Positions 13,787-22,785 of a stretch of DNA of 33,863 nt are shown piece after piece. The notes beneath the pieces were generated by a model. The model was not told the DNA's origin and did no database searches. It saw nothing but the letters and a program-made list of their open reading frames with translations. The translations under genes and the position numbers were made by a program. How positions within the stretch are numbered: position 1 is the first letter of the stretch; each line of letters starts with the position of its first letter. Origin of the DNA: Candidatus Binatota bacterium. GTDB taxonomy: Bacteria > Desulfobacterota > Binatia > UBA1149 > CAITLU01. Location of the stretch: positions 1-33,863 of the forward strand of contig JAJRWY010000210.1 of the NCBI GenBank assembly GCA_024276575.1. The letters are read 5' to 3'.

Positions 13787-14302
13787 ATGATCATACATGC
13801 GTCTTGCTTTACATTGCGCCCTTGGCGGCGAGGCGACGAGGCGGCGCTGGTAAAGCACGCCGATAATCGCAGGATCTGGAGAAACCTGCGTTCGAACTTC
13901 CCCCACCCCTACACTCGCGAGGATGCCGAGAACTGGATCGCCGAATGCCTGGAGTCCAAAGGCAGAGCACTACGACTAGCTATAGTAGTAGGGAATGAAC
14001 CGGTGGGGGCAGTAGGGGTAGAGTTCGGCGGCGGCAACGGCCGTAGCGGTGGCGAAATCGGCTACTGGCTCGGCGAGGAACTATGGGGCCGCGGTATCGC
14101 AACGGAAGCCGTAGGGTTGGCGGCCGCCTACGCAATGGACGAACTCGGCATCGAGCGGCTGGAAGCCGCCGTACTACAGTCCAACACCGCGTCGATTCGG
14201 GTGCTCGAGAAAAACGGCTTCACCGCTTTCGCCCGGTTACGCAAAGGAGCGGGACGGCCGGGCAAATCGGCGATCGAGATACATTACGTCAAAGAGCGAT
14301 GA
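13787..14302 (+). CDS. GNAT-family N-acetyltransferase (RimJ/RimL-like)
   Basis: A 171-residue acetyl-CoA-dependent acetyltransferase. It opens with FTLRPWRRGDEAALVKHADN, typical of the RimJ/RimL/ribosomal-protein acetyltransferase branch. The acetyl-CoA pyrophosphate-binding signature is WGRGIATEAVGLAAAYA (about 100-116), preceded by GEIGYWLGEE. It ends with LQSNTASIRVLEKNGF, the conserved C-terminal strand-helix of the fold. The AGGA six bases before the ATG at 13787 fixes the start; the open frame continues upstream into the protease 3' end without homology. The substrate may be a protein N-terminus or a small amine; it cannot be told from sequence. It sits between the protease and the sensory cluster, 50 bases before the latter. 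Confidence 0.92.
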   Translation: MIIHASCFTLRPWRRGDEAALVKHADNRRIWRNLRSNFPHPYTREDAENWIAECLESKGRALRLAIVVGNEPVGAVGVEFGGGNGRSGGEIGYWLGEELWGRGIATEAVGLAAAYAMDELGIERLEAAVLQSNTASIRVLEKNGFTAFARLRKGAGRPGKSAIEIHYVKER

Positions 14303-14351: not shown

Positions 14352-15632
14352 TTGGCGCACGTTCGTTTCATATCCGTCACCGGCTTGGCGAAGTACCTGA
14401 TCGCCGGCGCACTGCTGTTGACATCCGCGGGGCTCTTCGCCGGCACTACGGCGACGGCGCGAACGACGGACTCCGCTGTTTCGGCGGGCAGCGACACGGC
14501 CAATTCGGCGTCGAAGCATAAGCGAACTCGTTCGCGCGGCACGCGTTCAGACAGTTCAGACACCGCAAGCCCCGCTACGAAAACTCAGCGCAAGCCGGCC
14601 CGTCTCGAAATATCGGCGGGAACGAAAGCCCCGCCCGAAGCCAAGAGCCCACCCGGGCCAGAAAGTAGCGATTCTGGCAAGGTGGAGACGCCTGGGCAGG
14701 AAACCGTCGCATTTTACTTCTACAGTCCCGATTGGCGGCCAGGGAATCTCAACCTTCTGACCGAGAGCATCGACTCCCTGATACACAGCGCCGGGATCGA
14801 CCTTTTCTTCCAGGCTTTCGCGCGTTACAGCGACTTTGTCGATCGAGTCGAGCAAGACCGGCCCCAGATCCTGATGGCACCGTCGTGGTTCGAAGAGAGC
14901 AACCTGACCGGTAGCACTCTCGAGCTGTTGGCGCGGCCGGTACGCGGGGGCAAGACATCGTACCGCAAAGCACTGATGACCAGTCCCAAGATAGACGCGA
15001 TCGAAGATCTCGCCCGCGGATCTATCGCAGCGACTGCCTACGCCATTGGCCCCGGCGGCGAGCGGTCGGTGCTCGAGGCCTTCAATCTCGACACTACCAC
15101 GGCCGCAGTGATCGCGGTGCCCAAAGACATCGACGCCTTACTCGCCTTGAGTTTCCAGCAAGTAGACGCCGCACTCGTGACCTCGGCCCAATTTGAAGCC
15201 CTGAGCCGCATCAGCCCGAACATAACCAAGGGGCTGAAGGTGCTGGCGTTCTCGCCGAATATCGCTTTCCCCGGAGTTTACGCCACACCCGAAGCGTCGG
15301 CAGCAACCAAGCGGCAGCTAAAACGAGTTCTGGCCAACTTGGCAACCAGCAAAGCGGGCCGCCGCGTACTGGAACTGCTTGGCTACGATGCATTGGCAAT
15401 CGTGGGCGGCTTACCCGCCCTAAGAGAGCCGCTCGAGACATCCGGCGATGCGGGAGCCAAAGCCACCGAACGTTCGGAACATCGAACGGAATCGGGAACC
15501 GGCACTGGACTCACAGGTGCCGCTACCGGCCCGGCGCCGGCTTCCGAATCGACAAGCACGAAAAGCACGCCGGCAGGGCAGGCTAAAGCCATGGACCGCA
15601 AGGCCACGCGGCTGGGAGTCCACGGCCGATGA
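14352..15632 (+). CDS. PhnD/SsuA-like periplasmic binding protein, first gene of sensory cluster
   Basis: A 426-residue exported solute-binding protein. A signal segment (YLIAGALLLTSAGLFAGTTATA, about 15-36) is followed by a Ser/Thr/Lys-rich disordered stretch to about residue 115. A periplasmic-binding fold of the PhnD/SsuA/transferrin type comes next: PQILMAPSWFEE, then AIEDLARGSIAATAYAIGPGG...VLEAFNLD (equivalent to the DL.GK.IA...GS pattern), then VDAALVTSAQFEAL, then YATPEASAATKRQLKRVLANL. The last ~60 residues are again low-complexity. The start used is TTG with AAGGG only two bases ahead, so the exact start is uncertain. Its TGA overlaps the ATG of the next gene (ATGA), which implies translational coupling. 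No ABC permease or ATPase is nearby, so a sensing role is more likely than import. Confidence 0.78.
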   Translation: MAHVRFISVTGLAKYLIAGALLLTSAGLFAGTTATARTTDSAVSAGSDTANSASKHKRTRSRGTRSDSSDTASPATKTQRKPARLEISAGTKAPPEAKSPPGPESSDSGKVETPGQETVAFYFYSPDWRPGNLNLLTESIDSLIHSAGIDLFFQAFARYSDFVDRVEQDRPQILMAPSWFEESNLTGSTLELLARPVRGGKTSYRKALMTSPKIDAIEDLARGSIAATAYAIGPGGERSVLEAFNLDTTTAAVIAVPKDIDALLALSFQQVDAALVTSAQFEALSRISPNITKGLKVLAFSPNIAFPGVYATPEASAATKRQLKRVLANLATSKAGRRVLELLGYDALAIVGGLPALREPLETSGDAGAKATERSEHRTESGTGTGLTGAATGPAPASESTSTKSTPAGQAKAMDRKATRLGVHGR

Positions 15633-16732
15633 ACACAGTGTTTCGACAAGAAAGTGCGGAACCTGGCCGCAACTACATACCGGAGCGGGCGATTGGAACT
15701 GGATTGCACATGAGCAAAGGATTCAAGCACAAAGGATGCCCGGCGCAGCGTCCGTGTGGAACTCGTTGGCGGGCGGCGGTAACTCTGGCAGCGCTCCTAT
15801 GCCTGTCTGCACCCGCCGCAGCGCAGGATTCATCGAGCAGCTCCGCTGCCGATGTAAGCCGCGAAAGCGGCAGCTTCGTCTTGATCGTGAAAAGCGGGAA
15901 CCTTCCTCAATACGACGCCCCGGTAGCAGCTTTCATCGAAAACTCTCCAGCGCCGGTTCGCCAGATCGAACTGCTACCCGAGGCCCAAGAGGCCTCGCGC
16001 ATGCTCCAAGAATTCATCGATAAGGCGCCCCCGCACGGCGTGTTCGCACTGGGCGCCCCGGCCGCCCAGCTCAGCCATAAGCTGATGCCGGATACGCCCA
16101 CCGTTTTCGCGATGGTTCTGAACTGGCAACGCTTCGGTCTGACCGGCGGGCCGGTGGCCGGGGTTTCCGCGGAAGTTCCGATTGCGGCGCGTCTCACCCG
16201 CTTCAAGCTGATGTTACCTCGTATAAAAAGGATCGGAGTAATCTATAGCCACGCGACCCCGCTACGAAGGATAGAGACCGCCCGCCGTGCGGCAACAGCC
16301 CTGGGCATAGACCTAGTAGAGGAGGCGGTAGTCTACGCCGACGAAGTCCCCGGTGCCTATCGTCGCATACGAACCGAAATAGACGCCTTGTGGATGACGC
16401 CCGATTCGATTGTGGTCTCGATCGAGAACTTCAACTACCTGGCCCAACGCACTCTGCACGATCGCATCGCCTTCCTGGCTTTTTCCGAGAACTTCGTCCG
16501 TGCCGGAGCCTTGTTGTCGATCTCTGCCGACCACGCGAGTGCCGGATCGCAAGCCGCCGTATTGCTCGAAAAGATGCTTGCCGATCCCACGCTGAGACCT
16601 GAGGTTCAGGACCCCATGGGCAGCTCTCTTGCGGTCAATCAGGCAGTGGCAGCGGCCATAGATATGCCACTCGACAACAACACGGTCTCAATGGCGGACG
16701 TGATTATAAAGACGGTAGGGGGAAAGCGATGA
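15629..16732 (+). CDS. ABC-type substrate-binding protein (PF04392-like)
   Basis: A 367-residue periplasmic binding protein. The signal-peptide core is RWRAAVTLAALLCLSAPAAAQ (about 46-66). The first lobe begins SFVLIVKSGNLPQYDAPVAAF and contains GVFALGAPAAQLSHKLMPDTPTVFAMVLN; the second lobe begins RIKRIGVIYSHATPLRRIETARRAATALGI. This layout (ask for a total from a hydrophobic strand, then IGVIYS) is that of the PF04392 ABC substrate-binding family. Two starts are possible: ATG 15629, overlapping the upstream stop with a GGGAG ten bases ahead, or ATG 15710, which gives a signal peptide of more usual length but a weak ribosome-binding site. Its own TGA again overlaps the next start (ATGA). PF04392 proteins beside TonB receptors and kinases, without permeases, suggest ligand sensing; the ligand is unknown. 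Confidence 0.82.
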   Translation: MNTVFRQESAEPGRNYIPERAIGTGLHMSKGFKHKGCPAQRPCGTRWRAAVTLAALLCLSAPAAAQDSSSSSAADVSRESGSFVLIVKSGNLPQYDAPVAAFIENSPAPVRQIELLPEAQEASRMLQEFIDKAPPHGVFALGAPAAQLSHKLMPDTPTVFAMVLNWQRFGLTGGPVAGVSAEVPIAARLTRFKLMLPRIKRIGVIYSHATPLRRIETARRAATALGIDLVEEAVVYADEVPGAYRRIRTEIDALWMTPDSIVVSIENFNYLAQRTLHDRIAFLAFSENFVRAGALLSISADHASAGSQAAVLLEKMLADPTLRPEVQDPMGSSLAVNQAVAAAIDMPLDNNTVSMADVIIKTVGGKR

Positions 16733-19122
16733 AAGCGGCAACAAAAACGAGGCTGAACCGCTTTGCTATCCTCCGGCATTCGACCGTCGGCCCGGCCCTA
16801 AACCGCCCACGGGTTGAGCCTGTAGCGGCCGGACGCAACCGTTTGCGGCCGTCGCCGGGATCGAGCGCCCTACGCCGAACCATCCTGCTGGGCCTGGCCC
16901 TGCTTCCACTGGCGGGACTAATCCCGGATTCCGATGCTTTCGCAGCCCGCAGCTTCCGGCCCGGCTCGACTCCACGTGCCGCGGCATCGCCGGCTTCCGT
17001 CTTCTTCGACGGCAGAACGTATAGCGGCGAAGATGGAGCTACTGAAGCCTGCACCGCTGGAGCCTTTACTACCGGGGCCTTCACCGCTCAGTACTCCGCC
17101 GCCGAAGCTCTTGCCGAGCACGCCGGCAGCCAAGCGGCTGAGGATGCACAAGAGGTCTGGCAACCCGGAACCGCCACCTATCTGGGTATCGCGCCGGATG
17201 CAGAAATCGACTTCTTCCGTGCCGAAAGCGCAGTCGTGACTTCGGTCTCCAAGCACGAGGAACCGCTATGGCATGCGGCGGCGGCGGTCTACGTCCTGAA
17301 GGGAGAAGATATCATCGCTGCAGGTGCAGAGGACCTTAGCGATGCTCTGCGCATGGTCCCCGGACTCGACGTGGCGGCCATAGACTTCAACCAGTCCGCA
17401 ATCTCGTCGCGCGGCTTCACCGGCATATTCGCCGATAAGATGCTGGTGCTGCTCGACGGACACCCCATCTACACGCCGCTGTTCGGTGGAACCGTCTGGT
17501 CGCAATGGTCTACTTTCCTGCCCGACGTCGACCGTATCGAAGTCGTGCGCGGCCCCGGCGGCACCTTGTGGGGGGCCAATGCCGTAAACGGCGTCATCAA
17601 TATCATCACCAAGAACGCGGAAGACACCCAGGGCGTACTGCTTAGAGCCTTTGCCGGCTCCAATAGCAGCGTACAAAGCGAAGCCCGCTACGGCGGTGGT
17701 GTTAACGACTTCCACTACCGATTCTACGCACGCTGGGGAAGCAGCCAAGGCTTCGGCGGCAACGGCGGCAACGACATCGCCGATCAACGTGACGAGGCGC
17801 GGCTCGGGTACCGCATGGACTGGGATCTCGGCAAGGGCCTGCGAATGACCAGTCTCGGCGAATACTACAACGGCCGGCTGGGCAACGATCCACGCTTCGA
17901 TCCCGGCAGCGCCTCCGCAACGACCCGGGACATGGGCGCCAAACACGAAACCGAGTCGTTCTCGGGATTCTGGCAGGTCGAGAAGGACTTCGCCGGCGGA
18001 TCATACGCTTTCTTGCGTGCCGGAGCCGATTATATTGACCGTAAGGTTCCATTCCTCGGCGACTTCTCTAACCGGCGCAAGACTTGGGACCTGGAGTTCC
18101 AGCACCGCTTTCGCCTCCATCGCACGGCTGTAGCGACATGGGGCGCCGACTTCCGCTCCAGCAAGCTCGACATCAACGACGGGTTCGTGAGTTTCGATAC
18201 CGAGACCGACACCCTGAATGTCGCGGGGGTCTTCGCCCAGGTGGAGCTTGCCCTGGGAGACCGGACCTTGTTGACCACCGGAGCCAGAGTGGGACACAAC
18301 ACCTTCAGTTCAACCAACTTCCAGCCTTCGGTACGCCTGTCATATCGCTTGGACGGTGATCAAACCCTATGGGCAGCCGTCTCCAGGGCCATCAACACGC
18401 AGGCCTTTACCGACATGTACCTGGACCTGTCCATGCCGGGAAGCTACCAAGGAGAAACGGCCGTTTTGCGTTTCACCGGTGATCCCGACTCGGGCGACGG
18501 CGAGTTATTATCCTACGAACTCGGCTACCGCCGCCATTTCGGTTCCGCTGCATCCTTCGACGCTACCGTATTCTACAACGACTACGACCAGATAGCGGGG
18601 TGGAACGGAATAAACCCGCCCGTTATTGGAGACGACGGCCAAGGTGGCACCGTGTTGCTGCACCCTCACGACAACCTTGGAGAAGCATCGGCCTACGGTG
18701 CGGAAAGCGTGCTGCGCTTCCAAGCAACTCCGTGGTGGAGCGGCGAATTCAACGTATCCTTCCTCGAATTCCGCCTAAATGGGCAAGACAACCCGGACGT
18801 ACCACAATGGAAGTTCAACTTACGCAACCGTTTCGAATTGTCCCCTGCCCTCGAGATCGTCCCCACTTTCCATTGGGTCGATTCCGTCGAGACCGACCCC
18901 GTCTTCCGCAGTGCGGCTGCCGAAAAACGAAGTCTTCGTATCTCCTCATACTTGCGCGCCGATCTCGCGCTAAATTTTGAGCCGGGCGACGGATGGCCGG
19001 CCATCAGCTTGGTCGGACGCAACTTGCTGGAGCGCTCACATCTGGAGAGTTACGAGGAACTGGTGCGCACACCCTCGCCCGTCACACGAAGCTGGTTCAT
19101 CAAACTGAGCAAAGAGTTCTGA
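16729..19122 (+). CDS. TonB-dependent outer-membrane receptor
   Basis: A 797-residue outer-membrane receptor for ligands moved with TonB/ExbBD energy. A plug domain (about 180-305) shows VYVLKGEDIIAAGAEDLSDALRMVPGLDV, MLVLLDGHPIYTPLF, VDRIEVVRGPGGTLWGANAVNGVINIITK, all classic. A 22-strand-type beta-barrel follows to a C-terminal Phe (IKLSKEF), the usual signal for barrel insertion. The N-terminus is odd: about 180 residues precede the plug, and the hydrophobic export segment (TILLGLALLPLAGLIP) starts only near residue 50. A TTG at 16843 could be the true start, but AGGGGG six bases before the ATG and the ATGA overlap with the upstream gene support 16729. A low-complexity stretch (TEACTAGAFTTGAFTAQ) follows the export segment. 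The ligand cannot be inferred; barrel sequences of this kind include siderophore, cobalamin and unknown-ligand receptors. Confidence 0.93.
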   Translation: MKAATKTRLNRFAILRHSTVGPALNRPRVEPVAAGRNRLRPSPGSSALRRTILLGLALLPLAGLIPDSDAFAARSFRPGSTPRAAASPASVFFDGRTYSGEDGATEACTAGAFTTGAFTAQYSAAEALAEHAGSQAAEDAQEVWQPGTATYLGIAPDAEIDFFRAESAVVTSVSKHEEPLWHAAAAVYVLKGEDIIAAGAEDLSDALRMVPGLDVAAIDFNQSAISSRGFTGIFADKMLVLLDGHPIYTPLFGGTVWSQWSTFLPDVDRIEVVRGPGGTLWGANAVNGVINIITKNAEDTQGVLLRAFAGSNSSVQSEARYGGGVNDFHYRFYARWGSSQGFGGNGGNDIADQRDEARLGYRMDWDLGKGLRMTSLGEYYNGRLGNDPRFDPGSASATTRDMGAKHETESFSGFWQVEKDFAGGSYAFLRAGADYIDRKVPFLGDFSNRRKTWDLEFQHRFRLHRTAVATWGADFRSSKLDINDGFVSFDTETDTLNVAGVFAQVELALGDRTLLTTGARVGHNTFSSTNFQPSVRLSYRLDGDQTLWAAVSRAINTQAFTDMYLDLSMPGSYQGETAVLRFTGDPDSGDGELLSYELGYRRHFGSAASFDATVFYNDYDQIAGWNGINPPVIGDDGQGGTVLLHPHDNLGEASAYGAESVLRFQATPWWSGEFNVSFLEFRLNGQDNPDVPQWKFNLRNRFELSPALEIVPTFHWVDSVETDPVFRSAAAEKRSLRISSYLRADLALNFEPGDGWPAISLVGRNLLERSHLESYEELVRTPSPVTRSWFIKLSKEF

Positions 19123-19137
19123 GAAGGTCCTGGGCGG

Positions 19138-20802
19138 GTGAAAAGCAGTAAGGTATTTCGAAACCTCTTGCGGGCTTTGCGGCCCGGAATAGGCTTGCAT
19201 CTAAAACTCGCCATCGGCGGCACTCTCACAGCTTTCTTGTGTATCTTGCTGGTATCGGGGCTGTTGATGTACCGGCAGTCGGGGCTTCTCAATGCTGAGG
19301 TCCGGCGCTCCGCAGCCCACGCTCGCAAGAGCCTGATCGAGCGCGGCGCACTGCTGGCCCAGAGCATGGGCGCAAGCATGGAGTCGGCCATTGCAGGCTA
19401 CGACTTCGGTTTCATCACCGACACCGTAAGAACCACGCAAGAGCGCAACCACGACCTCGCCTATATACTTCTTACCAATGCCGCCAAGGTCATCATCGTA
19501 CATAGCGATTCCAGCCAGGTGGGTGGCCGTGCAGACCAGATATACGAAGACGGCAAGCCACGCTACCTAGAGCGTGACGACGGTACGAGAATCGTGGAGA
19601 TCAGCCGCCCCTTACGCGTCGGAGGCCGGAATTGGGGCTGGCTGGTGCTCGGATTCGATCTCGGACCGATACAAAGCCAAGCCAACGCCGCCATCGAACG
19701 CGGGAACCGGGTAATGGCCAGATCAATGACGGTCACGATCCTCATCGGCGCGGGGGTGGTGTTGCTCAGTCTCGGCGCCTCCATCTTGATCAGCCGGCAG
19801 TTGCTCAAACCCCTGGTACAACTGGCCCGTGACGCCGAGGACATGGGCAGCGGCAAGCTCAGCCAGGAGATCGCCTCGGTCGGATCCGCCGACGAGATCG
19901 GAGTGCTCGCCCGCCAGTTCGAAAAAACCAGGCGCGCGCTGCAAGAGCACGTGGGCGAGCTTCTCGTTGCCAAACAGGAGGCAGAAGATGCCACCCTCGA
20001 GGAAAAGCGGCTTCGTGCCCAGATCGAAGAACACTCCCGCTTGCTCGAAAGCAAGGTGCGCGAACGCACCGCCGAATTGGAAGCTACCAACGAAAGGCTC
20101 ACCGAATACGACCGGCTCAAGTCGGAATTCCTGAGCAACGTGTCGCACGAGTTGAGAAGCCCGCTATCGGCGATCTCCTCGGCCGCCAAGATCATCAGCC
20201 GTTATTCTCAAGGCGATGAAGAGAGCACTCAGCGTTTCGGAAAAATCATAACGGAGGAGAGCACGCGGCTCTCCAGACTCATCGATGACCTGCTCGACCT
20301 TTCCAAGATAGAAGCCGGCAAGACTGATTGGAACATCCAGTATATCGGCGACCCTTCGCAGTTACTCGAGCGGGTCGTCGAGATCTACCGGCCGCTGTAT
20401 GAAGAAAGTGAGATCACACTCGAACTCAGCTACGAATCGCCGCTACCGGGCATACACGGAGACCGGGACCGGCTGATACAGGTGCTCACCAACCTGTGCA
20501 GCAACGCCTTGAAGTTCACTCCGGAAGGCGGCCTCGTGCGCTTGCGAGCCTGCAAGGTGCTACAGGGGGAAAAAGCGATGCTCGAGGTCAGTGTCAGCGA
20601 CAGCGGCCCCGGGATCCCCGCCGGTGAGAGAGAATCCGTCTTCGAACGCTTCCACCAAGGCGGCGGCCCCGACAAGCCTCGCGGAACCGGTTTGGGCTTG
20701 GCCATATGCCGAGAGGTGGTCCTGCACCACGGAGGTTCCATCCGGGCCGAAGCCGCTCCCGAAGGCGGAACCCGGATGGTTATCCACCTTCCCGCCGCCT
20801 GA
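19138..20802 (+). CDS. HAMP-containing sensor histidine kinase of the sensory cluster
   Basis: A 554-residue inner-membrane kinase. TM1 at about residues 21-43 (LKLAIGGTLTAFLCILLVSGLLMY without its ends), then a ~150-residue periplasmic domain with YDFGFITDTVRTTQERNHDLAYILLTN and GRNWGWLVLGFDL, which resembles a single-Cache sensor. TM2 lies at about 197-222 and runs into HAMP (PLVQLARDAEDMGSGKLSQEI). A coiled coil follows (EHSRLLESKVRERTAELEATNERL). The H box is FLSNVSHELRSPLSAI with phosphoacceptor His337; the N box NLCSNALKFTPEGG, G1 DSGPGIP and G2 GTGLGLAICREVV complete the ATPase. The start is GTG with AAGG about ten bases ahead. It lies 15 bases after the receptor gene. No response regulator is adjacent; hflK begins 97 bases downstream. 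Confidence 0.93.
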   Translation: MKSSKVFRNLLRALRPGIGLHLKLAIGGTLTAFLCILLVSGLLMYRQSGLLNAEVRRSAAHARKSLIERGALLAQSMGASMESAIAGYDFGFITDTVRTTQERNHDLAYILLTNAAKVIIVHSDSSQVGGRADQIYEDGKPRYLERDDGTRIVEISRPLRVGGRNWGWLVLGFDLGPIQSQANAAIERGNRVMARSMTVTILIGAGVVLLSLGASILISRQLLKPLVQLARDAEDMGSGKLSQEIASVGSADEIGVLARQFEKTRRALQEHVGELLVAKQEAEDATLEEKRLRAQIEEHSRLLESKVRERTAELEATNERLTEYDRLKSEFLSNVSHELRSPLSAISSAAKIISRYSQGDEESTQRFGKIITEESTRLSRLIDDLLDLSKIEAGKTDWNIQYIGDPSQLLERVVEIYRPLYEESEITLELSYESPLPGIHGDRDRLIQVLTNLCSNALKFTPEGGLVRLRACKVLQGEKAMLEVSVSDSGPGIPAGERESVFERFHQGGGPDKPRGTGLGLAICREVVLHHGGSIRAEAAPEGGTRMVIHLPAA

Positions 20803-20899: not shown

Positions 20900-21931
20900 A
20901 TGCCAATGGATCTAGGAAATGGCGCGCGGAGGCCTCCGTCTCCGGAACAAGCGCTCGAAGAGTTCATCAACAAATTGCGGGGTAGGTTTCCGGGCGGATG
21001 CGGATTCCTCATCGCCATAGTGGGCCTATTGATGTGGCTGGCTACCGGATACTACCAAGTAAACCCGAGCGAAGCCGGCGTGGTCTTGCGCTTCGGAAAA
21101 GCCGTCTACACCACGGAACCAGGGCCGCATTTCCACATTCCTTGGCCGGTAGAAACGGTGATCACTGTTCCGATCATGGCCGTGCTCAAAGAAGAAGTAG
21201 GCTTTCGCACCATCAGCGTCGGCCCGCCCGCGCGCTATCGCAATGTGGTTGAAGAAGCGCGCATGCTGACCTCCGACGGCAACATCGTAGACCTGGACTT
21301 CATCATTCAGTACCGCATAAAGGATCCCATTGCCTACTTGTTCAAGATAAGAAACCCCACCGAAACCTTGCGCGACTGCGCCGAATCGGCGATGCGCGAA
21401 GTGGTCGGACGCTCCACCATCAATAGCGCGCTTACCGAGGGAAGGCTCGATATACAGGTGCGTGCACAAGAACTCCTGCAACAGATGCTCGACGGATATG
21501 GGTCCGGACTGCAGGTAACCACGGTCAAGTTACAAGACGTCAAACCTCCGGAACCGGTGCAGGACGCCTTCAAGGACGTGATCAATGCGGAACAAGACAA
21601 AGAGCGCTTGATCAACGAGGCCCAGGGCTTCGCCAACGACATCTTACCGAAAGCGCGCGGCGTGGCGGCCGAGAGCCTCAACGAGGCTGAGGCGTACGCG
21701 GAATCCGTCGTCAAGAAGGCTCTGGGCGAGGCCGGACGCTTCGACCTCCTCTATGACGCCTATGTGACGGCACCTGACGTGACCCGGAAACGCTTGTACC
21801 TGGAAACCATGGAACAGATCCTCCCAGGCATAGACAAGATAATAATATCGGACTCCATATCCCAGAAAATACTGCCTTATCTCCCTCTGGACAGGAAAGC
21901 TTCGATAGGCAAGGGAGGCGACAGCAAATGA
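20900..21931 (+). CDS. hflK: FtsH protease activity modulator HflK
   Basis: A 343-residue SPFH/prohibitin-family membrane protein. With HflC it forms a large periplasm-facing cage around the membrane protease FtsH and limits its action. The N-terminal cytoplasmic tail (RRPPSPEQALEEFINKLRGRF) precedes one transmembrane helix (GFLIAIVGLLMWLATGYYQV, about 34-53), then the SPFH domain starting NPSEAGVVLRFGKAVYTTEPGPHFHIPWP. The segment DGNIVDLDFIIQYRIKDP and the long helical region with AQELLQQMLDGYGSGLQVTTVKLQDVKPPEPVQDAF are typical. AGGTGA six bases before the ATG at 20900 fixes the start. The stop overlaps the hflC start as ATGA. Confidence 0.97.
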   Translation: MPMDLGNGARRPPSPEQALEEFINKLRGRFPGGCGFLIAIVGLLMWLATGYYQVNPSEAGVVLRFGKAVYTTEPGPHFHIPWPVETVITVPIMAVLKEEVGFRTISVGPPARYRNVVEEARMLTSDGNIVDLDFIIQYRIKDPIAYLFKIRNPTETLRDCAESAMREVVGRSTINSALTEGRLDIQVRAQELLQQMLDGYGSGLQVTTVKLQDVKPPEPVQDAFKDVINAEQDKERLINEAQGFANDILPKARGVAAESLNEAEAYAESVVKKALGEAGRFDLLYDAYVTAPDVTRKRLYLETMEQILPGIDKIIISDSISQKILPYLPLDRKASIGKGGDSK

Positions 21932-22785
21932 ACCGTGCAGCATCGGTATTGGCCCTGGTCGCGATAGTCCTGGTAGTGCTCTATCGCATGGTCGCCTTTC
22001 AAGTTCCGGAGTGGGAAAGCGCCATCGTACTGCAACTCGATAAGCCGGTAAGAAACATTAATGAGCCCGGCTTGTACTGGAAGCTTCCATTGATACAGCG
22101 GGTAATTCTAGTTGAAAAACGCCTGCTCGAATACGATGCCGCTCCCCGCGAACTCATCACCCGGGACAAACAGCAATTACAGGTCGACAACTTCTCACGC
22201 TGGAAGATAGTCGATCCTTTGAAGTTCTATCAGACCGTGCGCAGCGAAGCCGAAGCGCAGTCGCGGCTCGACGACATCATCTACTCCAACTTGCGTGAAG
22301 CCATCGGCCGCACCAAGCAAAGCGAAGTAGTATCGGGTGACCGGAAACTCCTACTGGAACACGTCACCCAAGAATCGAACGAGCGTGCGGCGAGCTACGG
22401 AATCAAGGTAGTGGACGTGCGCATCAAGCGCACCGACTTGCCGGCCAAAAACGAACAGAACGTTTTTAGCCGCATGCGCACGGAACGCGAGCGCCAGGCC
22501 AAGAAGTTCCGTGCCGAAGGCGACGAGGAAGCTCGCAAGATTCGTTCACAAGCCGAACGCGAACGCCGCATATTGCTTGCCGAGGCGACGCGTAAAGCCG
22601 AACTCATACGCGGCAAGGGCGACGCCAAAGCGGTTCGTATCTATGCTGACTCCTACGAGCGTGACCCCGAGTTTTACGAGTTCACACGCACGCTCGAAGC
22701 CTACCGCAACACGCTGGGCGACAAGACCAGCTTAGTGCTGACACCTTCCACCGAGTTCTTGCGGCTGCTCGAATCATCTAAGTAG
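21928..22785 (+). CDS. hflC: FtsH protease activity modulator HflC
   Basis: A 285-residue SPFH-family partner of HflK. One N-terminal transmembrane helix (ASVLALVAIVLVVLYRMVAF, about 4-23), then the SPFH domain with ESAIVLQLDKPVRNINEPGLYWKLPLIQRVILVEKRLLEYD. The pattern DNFSRWKIVDPLKFYQTVRSE and a long, charged coiled-coil (SRMRTERERQAKKFRAEGDEEARKIRSQAERERRILLAEA) build the cage wall. It ends EFLRLLESSK, in line with family members. GGGAGG lies nine bases ahead of the ATG, inside the hflK 3' end, and the four-base overlap implies coupled translation and a fixed ratio of the two subunits. A long perfect hairpin follows about 50 bases downstream. Confidence 0.97.
   Translation: MNRAASVLALVAIVLVVLYRMVAFQVPEWESAIVLQLDKPVRNINEPGLYWKLPLIQRVILVEKRLLEYDAAPRELITRDKQQLQVDNFSRWKIVDPLKFYQTVRSEAEAQSRLDDIIYSNLREAIGRTKQSEVVSGDRKLLLEHVTQESNERAASYGIKVVDVRIKRTDLPAKNEQNVFSRMRTERERQAKKFRAEGDEEARKIRSQAERERRILLAEATRKAELIRGKGDAKAVRIYADSYERDPEFYEFTRTLEAYRNTLGDKTSLVLTPSTEFLRLLESSK

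Follow-up and report, generated by a model that had tools for sequence, protein, structure and literature searches.

A probable envelope-spanning sensory unit of two periplasmic binding proteins, a TonB-dependent receptor and a histidine kinase in Candidatus Binatota

The four-gene cluster

Four genes packed on one strand of the window (the whole stretch of 33,863 nucleotides analysed here, contig C153 of the 4.36 Mb genome G000, which is 94% complete in 321 contigs) probably encode an envelope-spanning, binding-protein-triggered signal-transduction unit and not an importer; we put the probability of this reading at roughly 0.7. The cluster is not considered a transporter because no translocation machinery is linked to it, either here or in close relatives. 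The TonB-dependent receptor would admit a scarce or bulky extracellular molecule to the periplasm, where one or both binding proteins, to judge from their folds, would capture it. Conserved co-occurrence, correlated divergence and precedent suggest that the binding proteins, once occupied, would engage the kinase through its Cache-like domain and change the HAMP/kinase activity; a response regulator whose gene lies elsewhere in the genome would then receive the signal from the kinase. The Cache domain could also bind ligand by itself. The genes of the cluster and its nearest neighbours are as follows.

13790 to 14302, + strand: GNAT acetyltransferase (Pfam), in the upstream flank
14352 to 15632, + strand: SBP1, 426 aa, periplasmic binding protein of the PhnD/AioX/ArrX type (type II), putative TTG start
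15629 to 16732, + strand: SBP2, 367 aa, PF04392 periplasmic binding protein (type I), long N-terminus, start tentative
16729 to 19122, + strand: TonB-dependent receptor (TBDR), TOL_0244-related, long N-terminus, start tentative
19138 to 20802, + strand: membrane histidine kinase with a transmembrane segment, Cache-like periplasmic domain, second transmembrane segment, HAMP, HisKA and HATPase_c
20900 to 22785, + strand: HflK-HflC pair (Band_7, Pfam), starting 97 bases 3' of the kinase

The initial annotation had described such a one-strand set joined by ATGA overlaps and a 15-base gap, and the open reading frame coordinates and Pfam matches agree with it: the overlaps lie at 15629–15632 (SBP1/SBP2) and 16729–16732 (SBP2/TBDR), and 15 bases separate the TBDR from the kinase. 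Pfam scanning of the cluster's neighbours in the window detected neither a permease or ABC ATPase nor a response regulator. The absence of all three, also part of that description, holds for these neighbours, while the lack of a response regulator is local, as the cluster includes one in many relatives.

The upstream flank also contains an M43 peptidase and a PLP enzyme (Pfam scan). The GNAT acetyltransferase, a gene for which is also found near the SBP1-kinase pair of genome G001, is likely a neighbour only. The HflK-HflC pair was considered as a component and not adopted, since it adjoins the cluster in just two relatives (G011 and G007, where open reading frame layout and an HMM search place HflKC-sized frames 3' of the kinase); it is likely a syntenic neighbour.

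Conservation of the arrangement

The order SBP1-SBP2-TBDR-kinase is conserved beyond this genome, a check that the initial annotation had proposed: it is found in five genomes from three other families of the same taxonomic order. Three of these genomes, G008, G010 and G012, share a genus; the others are G011 and G007, the last with two SBP2 genes. Identity to the window proteins in these relatives is 33–42% for SBP1, 41–46% for SBP2, 43–56% for the TBDR and 51–59% for the kinase, and the four-base overlap of SBP1 and SBP2 is seen again in relatives L028, L029, L030 and L032. In G002 the contig is cut at its start and TBDR-kinase is retained. Chance does not account for the four-gene arrangement, since other families of the order show the same gene order with proteins 33–59% identical. 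A fortuitous packing of genes with separate functions and no common mechanism might be argued from the different gene orders in different phyla, and from SBP2 genes that adjoin only a TBDR or nothing recognised; that the genes keep occurring together across several phyla, in varying order and with conserved overlaps, largely refutes it, and we regard it as very improbable.

In G001 and G003, both from the family to which the window genome belongs, SBP1 directly adjoins a kinase whose sensor domain is the same, with neither SBP2 nor TBDR beside it, and neither genome has an SBP2 match at 1e-20. Minimal SBP1-kinase pairs of the window's own family lie at L211 (6101–8784) and L212 (6160–9063), one in each of two genomes.

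Elsewhere in the phylum and beyond it, SBP1-SBP2, a TBDR and a kinase of the same sensor domain are combined in other gene orders, at L061 of Methylobacter marinus, L067 of Ca. Kuenenia hertensis and L157 of G158. The arrangement in Methylobacter marinus A45 is SBP1-SBP2-hybrid kinase (with receivers, Hpt and GGDEF)-TBDR, and that in Ca. Kuenenia hertensis is TBDR-SBP1-SBP2-kinase/REC/Hpt-REC-GGDEF-TBDR. At L061 and L067 the identity to the window proteins is 19–28% for SBP1, SBP2 and the N-terminal part of the kinase. The kinase of L067 (12902–15434) is present as two open reading frames (365 and 474 aa) 10 bases apart, with the break within the kinase core; this may be a frameshift, an assembly error or a genuine split. 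At three further loci (L213, L214 and L216) no kinase gene was recognised beside SBP1-SBP2.

SBP2 relatives in transport and signalling

SBP2 matches PF04392 (ABC_sub_bind) with 72 bits. In a phylum survey of 297 genomes, 84 contained an SBP2 relative at E ≤ 1e-20, and neighbourhoods were read at about 70 loci from the ranked list, comprising the top matches and selected weaker ones rather than every match, with gene calling that gave priority to profile hits. Among 56 free-standing SBP2 relatives of the same phylum scoring at least 200 bits, a signalling protein was encoded at most four genes away in 42, a TBDR in 42 and either in 52. A BPD_transp_2 permease adjoined none of the 56, and an ABC ATPase was nearby in one. 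Of 16 relatives below 200 bits, ten adjoined the BPD_transp_2 permease and six a signalling protein; part of the surveyed loci went into iterating the HMM, so that the 200-bit threshold is not independent and the tree is the better test. Two proteins are single-chain fusions of SBP2 with a permease.

A quick maximum-likelihood tree of 101 SBP2 domains places all 14 permease-linked rows behind one branch (SH-aLRT 97), and a single change suffices for the transport/signal state. The window SBP2 groups with other Binatia rows on the opposite side from the permease-linked branch. Support is weak for many of the deeper branches of this tree, and a larger starred group unites the permease-linked rows with three signal-labelled ones. 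The tree suggests that a large part of PF04392, a family whose members are now named as transporter parts, is sensory. The idea of a sensor rather than an importer, put forward for the window in the initial annotation, gains support from this tree and from the swapping of outputs in the linked membrane partner (see below). A linked permease and ATPase in relatives had been named as the contrary outcome, and the permease count for the close relatives of SBP2 is zero.

The alternative is an uptake system, in which the kinase has only a regulatory role and the receptor and binding proteins supply a permease and ATPase whose genes lie elsewhere. A TBDR with a binding protein is a typical import pairing, and at L213 (7970–13580) SBP1-SBP2-TBDR is followed by an APC-family amino-acid permease, which may also point to an amino-acid-like ligand. 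Dual roles are known as well: general background on binding-protein-triggered kinases includes binding proteins able to serve transport and signalling alike (PMC9602780). Against uptake stand the missing PF04392-type permease beside the close SBP2 relatives, the confinement of permease-linked members behind a single separate branch, and the retention of SBP1-kinase alone in G001 and G003. We consider the uptake system unlikely.

Broadening the signal-transduction reading, we give about even odds to a more general statement: that PF04392 includes a large and so far undescribed signalling branch which, with a TBDR (and in a rarer subtype an AioX-like binding protein in addition), would form an outer-membrane-to-cytoplasm sensory relay. 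In several phyla this relay would have become joined to kinases, chemoreceptors, phosphatases or c-di-GMP enzymes, and its ligand would be imported for sensing and not for uptake.

Some genomes contain several SBP2 genes (L166, L167, L162), each with at least one adjoining TBDR and most with no recognised adjoining kinase; G200 has seven SBP2 matches. In Gammaproteobacteria (L289, L290, L291, L292, L294 and L298), distant SBP2 relatives lie directly beside GGDEF/EAL proteins of 690–750 aa, and these relatives constitute one starred group in the SBP2 tree.

The kinase, its sensor domain and its outputs

Pfam assigns HAMP, HisKA and HATPase_c domains to the window kinase and finds no receiver domain in it, and sCache_3_2 remains sub-threshold at 20.6 bits against a cut-off of 28.4. 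An AlphaFold2 model of residues 1–216 (pLDDT 85) contains a long helix and a PAS-like sheet, and its best solved matches in Foldseek are the Cache-type sensor domains of WalK, DctB and CitA. The periplasmic part (about residues 45–185) is thus predicted to adopt a Cache fold, and this confident model and the Foldseek matches lend support to the Cache-like domain proposed earlier from the sequence alone.

Clear homology of the sensor domain is restricted to two-binding-protein loci, and the kinases of SBP2-only loci are weakly similar and Cache-like by weak Pfam matches. Distances between kinase sensor domains correlate with those between SBP1 proteins (r = 0.89, 11 loci) and between SBP2 proteins (r = 0.88, 9 loci), correlations that would fit co-evolution but are confounded by shared descent.

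Gene content links the binding proteins of relatives to other outputs, including response regulators, c-di-GMP enzymes, a chemotaxis receptor and a SpoIIE phosphatase. The membrane partners beside SBP2 carry HisKA, HisKA_3, MCP, SpoIIE or hybrid kinase-GGDEF outputs, mostly behind HAMP: an MCP with CheR and CheW at L161, SpoIIE at L186 and L215, and a hybrid kinase with GGDEF at L061. Linked regulators are of the REC-GGDEF (L067), REC-HD (L157, L177) and LuxR (L175) types. A shared sensory input would predict just such an exchange of outputs around an input partner that stays the same. Together with the minimal SBP1-kinase and SBP2-kinase pairs, this exchange opens the mechanism to direct tests by chimeras in laboratory strains. 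At L161 (7059–16650) and L164, TBDR-SBP2 is followed by CheR, CheW and MCP, possibly a binding-protein-triggered chemosensory input with an outer-membrane receptor.

A search for a distant orphan response regulator, as suggested in the initial annotation, found 34 receiver matches elsewhere in the window genome, several of them with no recognised adjoining kinase; because there are so many, no partner regulator can be named for the window kinase. Only two OmpR-type output domains were found in the genome; the first lies next to a kinase of its own, and a contig end truncates the second.

SBP1, its fold and ligand

SBP1 has a signal-peptide-like N-terminus and matches PF12974 (Phosphonate-bd) with 58 bits and ArrX with a profile E-value of 6e-5. 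Its predicted model has a mean pLDDT of only 65 and is confident just in the core; in Foldseek, ranks 1–9 are ArrX, AioX and BstB entries, the top names being ArrX, BstB/MCA1014 and AioX. AioX and ArrX are sensory binding proteins that act with a kinase in three-component arsenic sensors (PMC5908839). Arsenic and phosphonate were considered as SBP1 ligands and not adopted; neither is indicated, because SBP1 has zero cysteines and the serine-rich anion loop of ArrX is not conserved in the profile alignment.

Long conserved blocks are kept in the alignments of both SBP1 and SBP2 across relatives, and the SBP1 block VPKDIDAL is invariant in all six sequences aligned, including those from distant loci. 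This type of SBP1 is rare: in the phylum sample 8 of 345 genomes carry it, and in the class to which Methylobacter belongs 2 of 369 do. The window SBP1 has long N- and C-terminal extensions (14430–14700 and 15415–15632), which are of low confidence and missing from most relatives.

The receptor family and YfiR-type clusters

The receptor matches the Pfam plug (68 bits) and barrel (86 bits) and the TOL_0244 family NF053590 (412 bits, under the curated cut-off of 645). By motif resemblance, VVTSVSK near residue 170 is TonB-box-like, and it is conserved in Binatia relatives. TonB_C proteins are encoded in the window genome, and hmmscan at E ≤ 0.01 found no STN signalling domain in the receptor.

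A scan of the genome collection with the receptor alignment retained 80 loci, 77 of them distant. A YfiR/HmsC-like protein is present in 54 of the 77, comprising 46 with a kinase and eight with no called kinase (PF13689 was confirmed on five example loci), and SBP1 and SBP2 are both present in two, L061 and L067. No PF13689 match was found among the scanned window proteins. Across the wider TBDR family YfiR takes the place of binding proteins at most loci, which makes binding proteins one of several solutions.

The frequency with which a YfiR/HmsC-like protein replaces the binding proteins raises the question of whether SBP1 and SBP2 are ligand-independent or inhibitory kinase partners in the manner of YfiR, which would report the state of the envelope or receptor and not a solute. 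The departure of the SBP1 profile alignment from the ArrX loop fits this alternative. Both proteins nevertheless match binding-protein families well, with their long blocks kept, and the nearest solved folds of SBP1 are ligand-binding. We therefore judge a YfiR-like role somewhat less probable even than the uptake system.

Comparison with known systems

Literature searches, which covered open-access papers, found no named system of TBDR, binding protein and kinase. In the literature searched, the combination of a TBDR with two binding proteins of different folds is undescribed, and binding-protein-triggered kinases, PhnD-fold ones included, are already known. The remark in the initial annotation that no named system of this composition is known stands for the whole set, whereas the combination of SBP1 with a kinase has precedent in AioXSR/ArrX. 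As there, a PhnD-fold binding protein is encoded with a sensor kinase in the window, and the fold is among the nearest solved to SBP1. The window differs in adding a type I binding protein and a TBDR, in an SBP1 whose lack of cysteine speaks against arsenite chemistry of the AioX type, and in having no response regulator adjacent to the cluster, although relatives such as L157 have one.

In systems of the TorT-TorS and LuxP-LuxQ kind, a type I binding-protein fold is presented to a membrane kinase. The window pairs the same kind of fold with a membrane kinase, but with the PF04392 family, a Cache-like sensor, a linked TBDR and a second binding protein. TrpX-type ABC importers share the Pfam family of SBP2, but they have their own BPD_transp_2 permease and ABC ATPase and occupy a separate branch in the SBP2 tree. 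The clusters of TBDR, YfiR/HmsC-like protein and kinase resemble the window in grouping a related receptor, a periplasmic protein and a kinase, with two binding proteins in the window in the place of YfiR (PF13689). Signalling TBDRs of the FecA type are TonB-dependent receptors within a signalling locus. The window receptor differs from them in having no detected STN domain, and its signal would pass via the binding proteins and the kinase. If this holds, signalling would gain a dedicated route across both membranes, independent of sigma-factor relays, and there would be an explanation for the many cases of a TonB-dependent receptor or an "ABC transporter" binding protein with no transporter.
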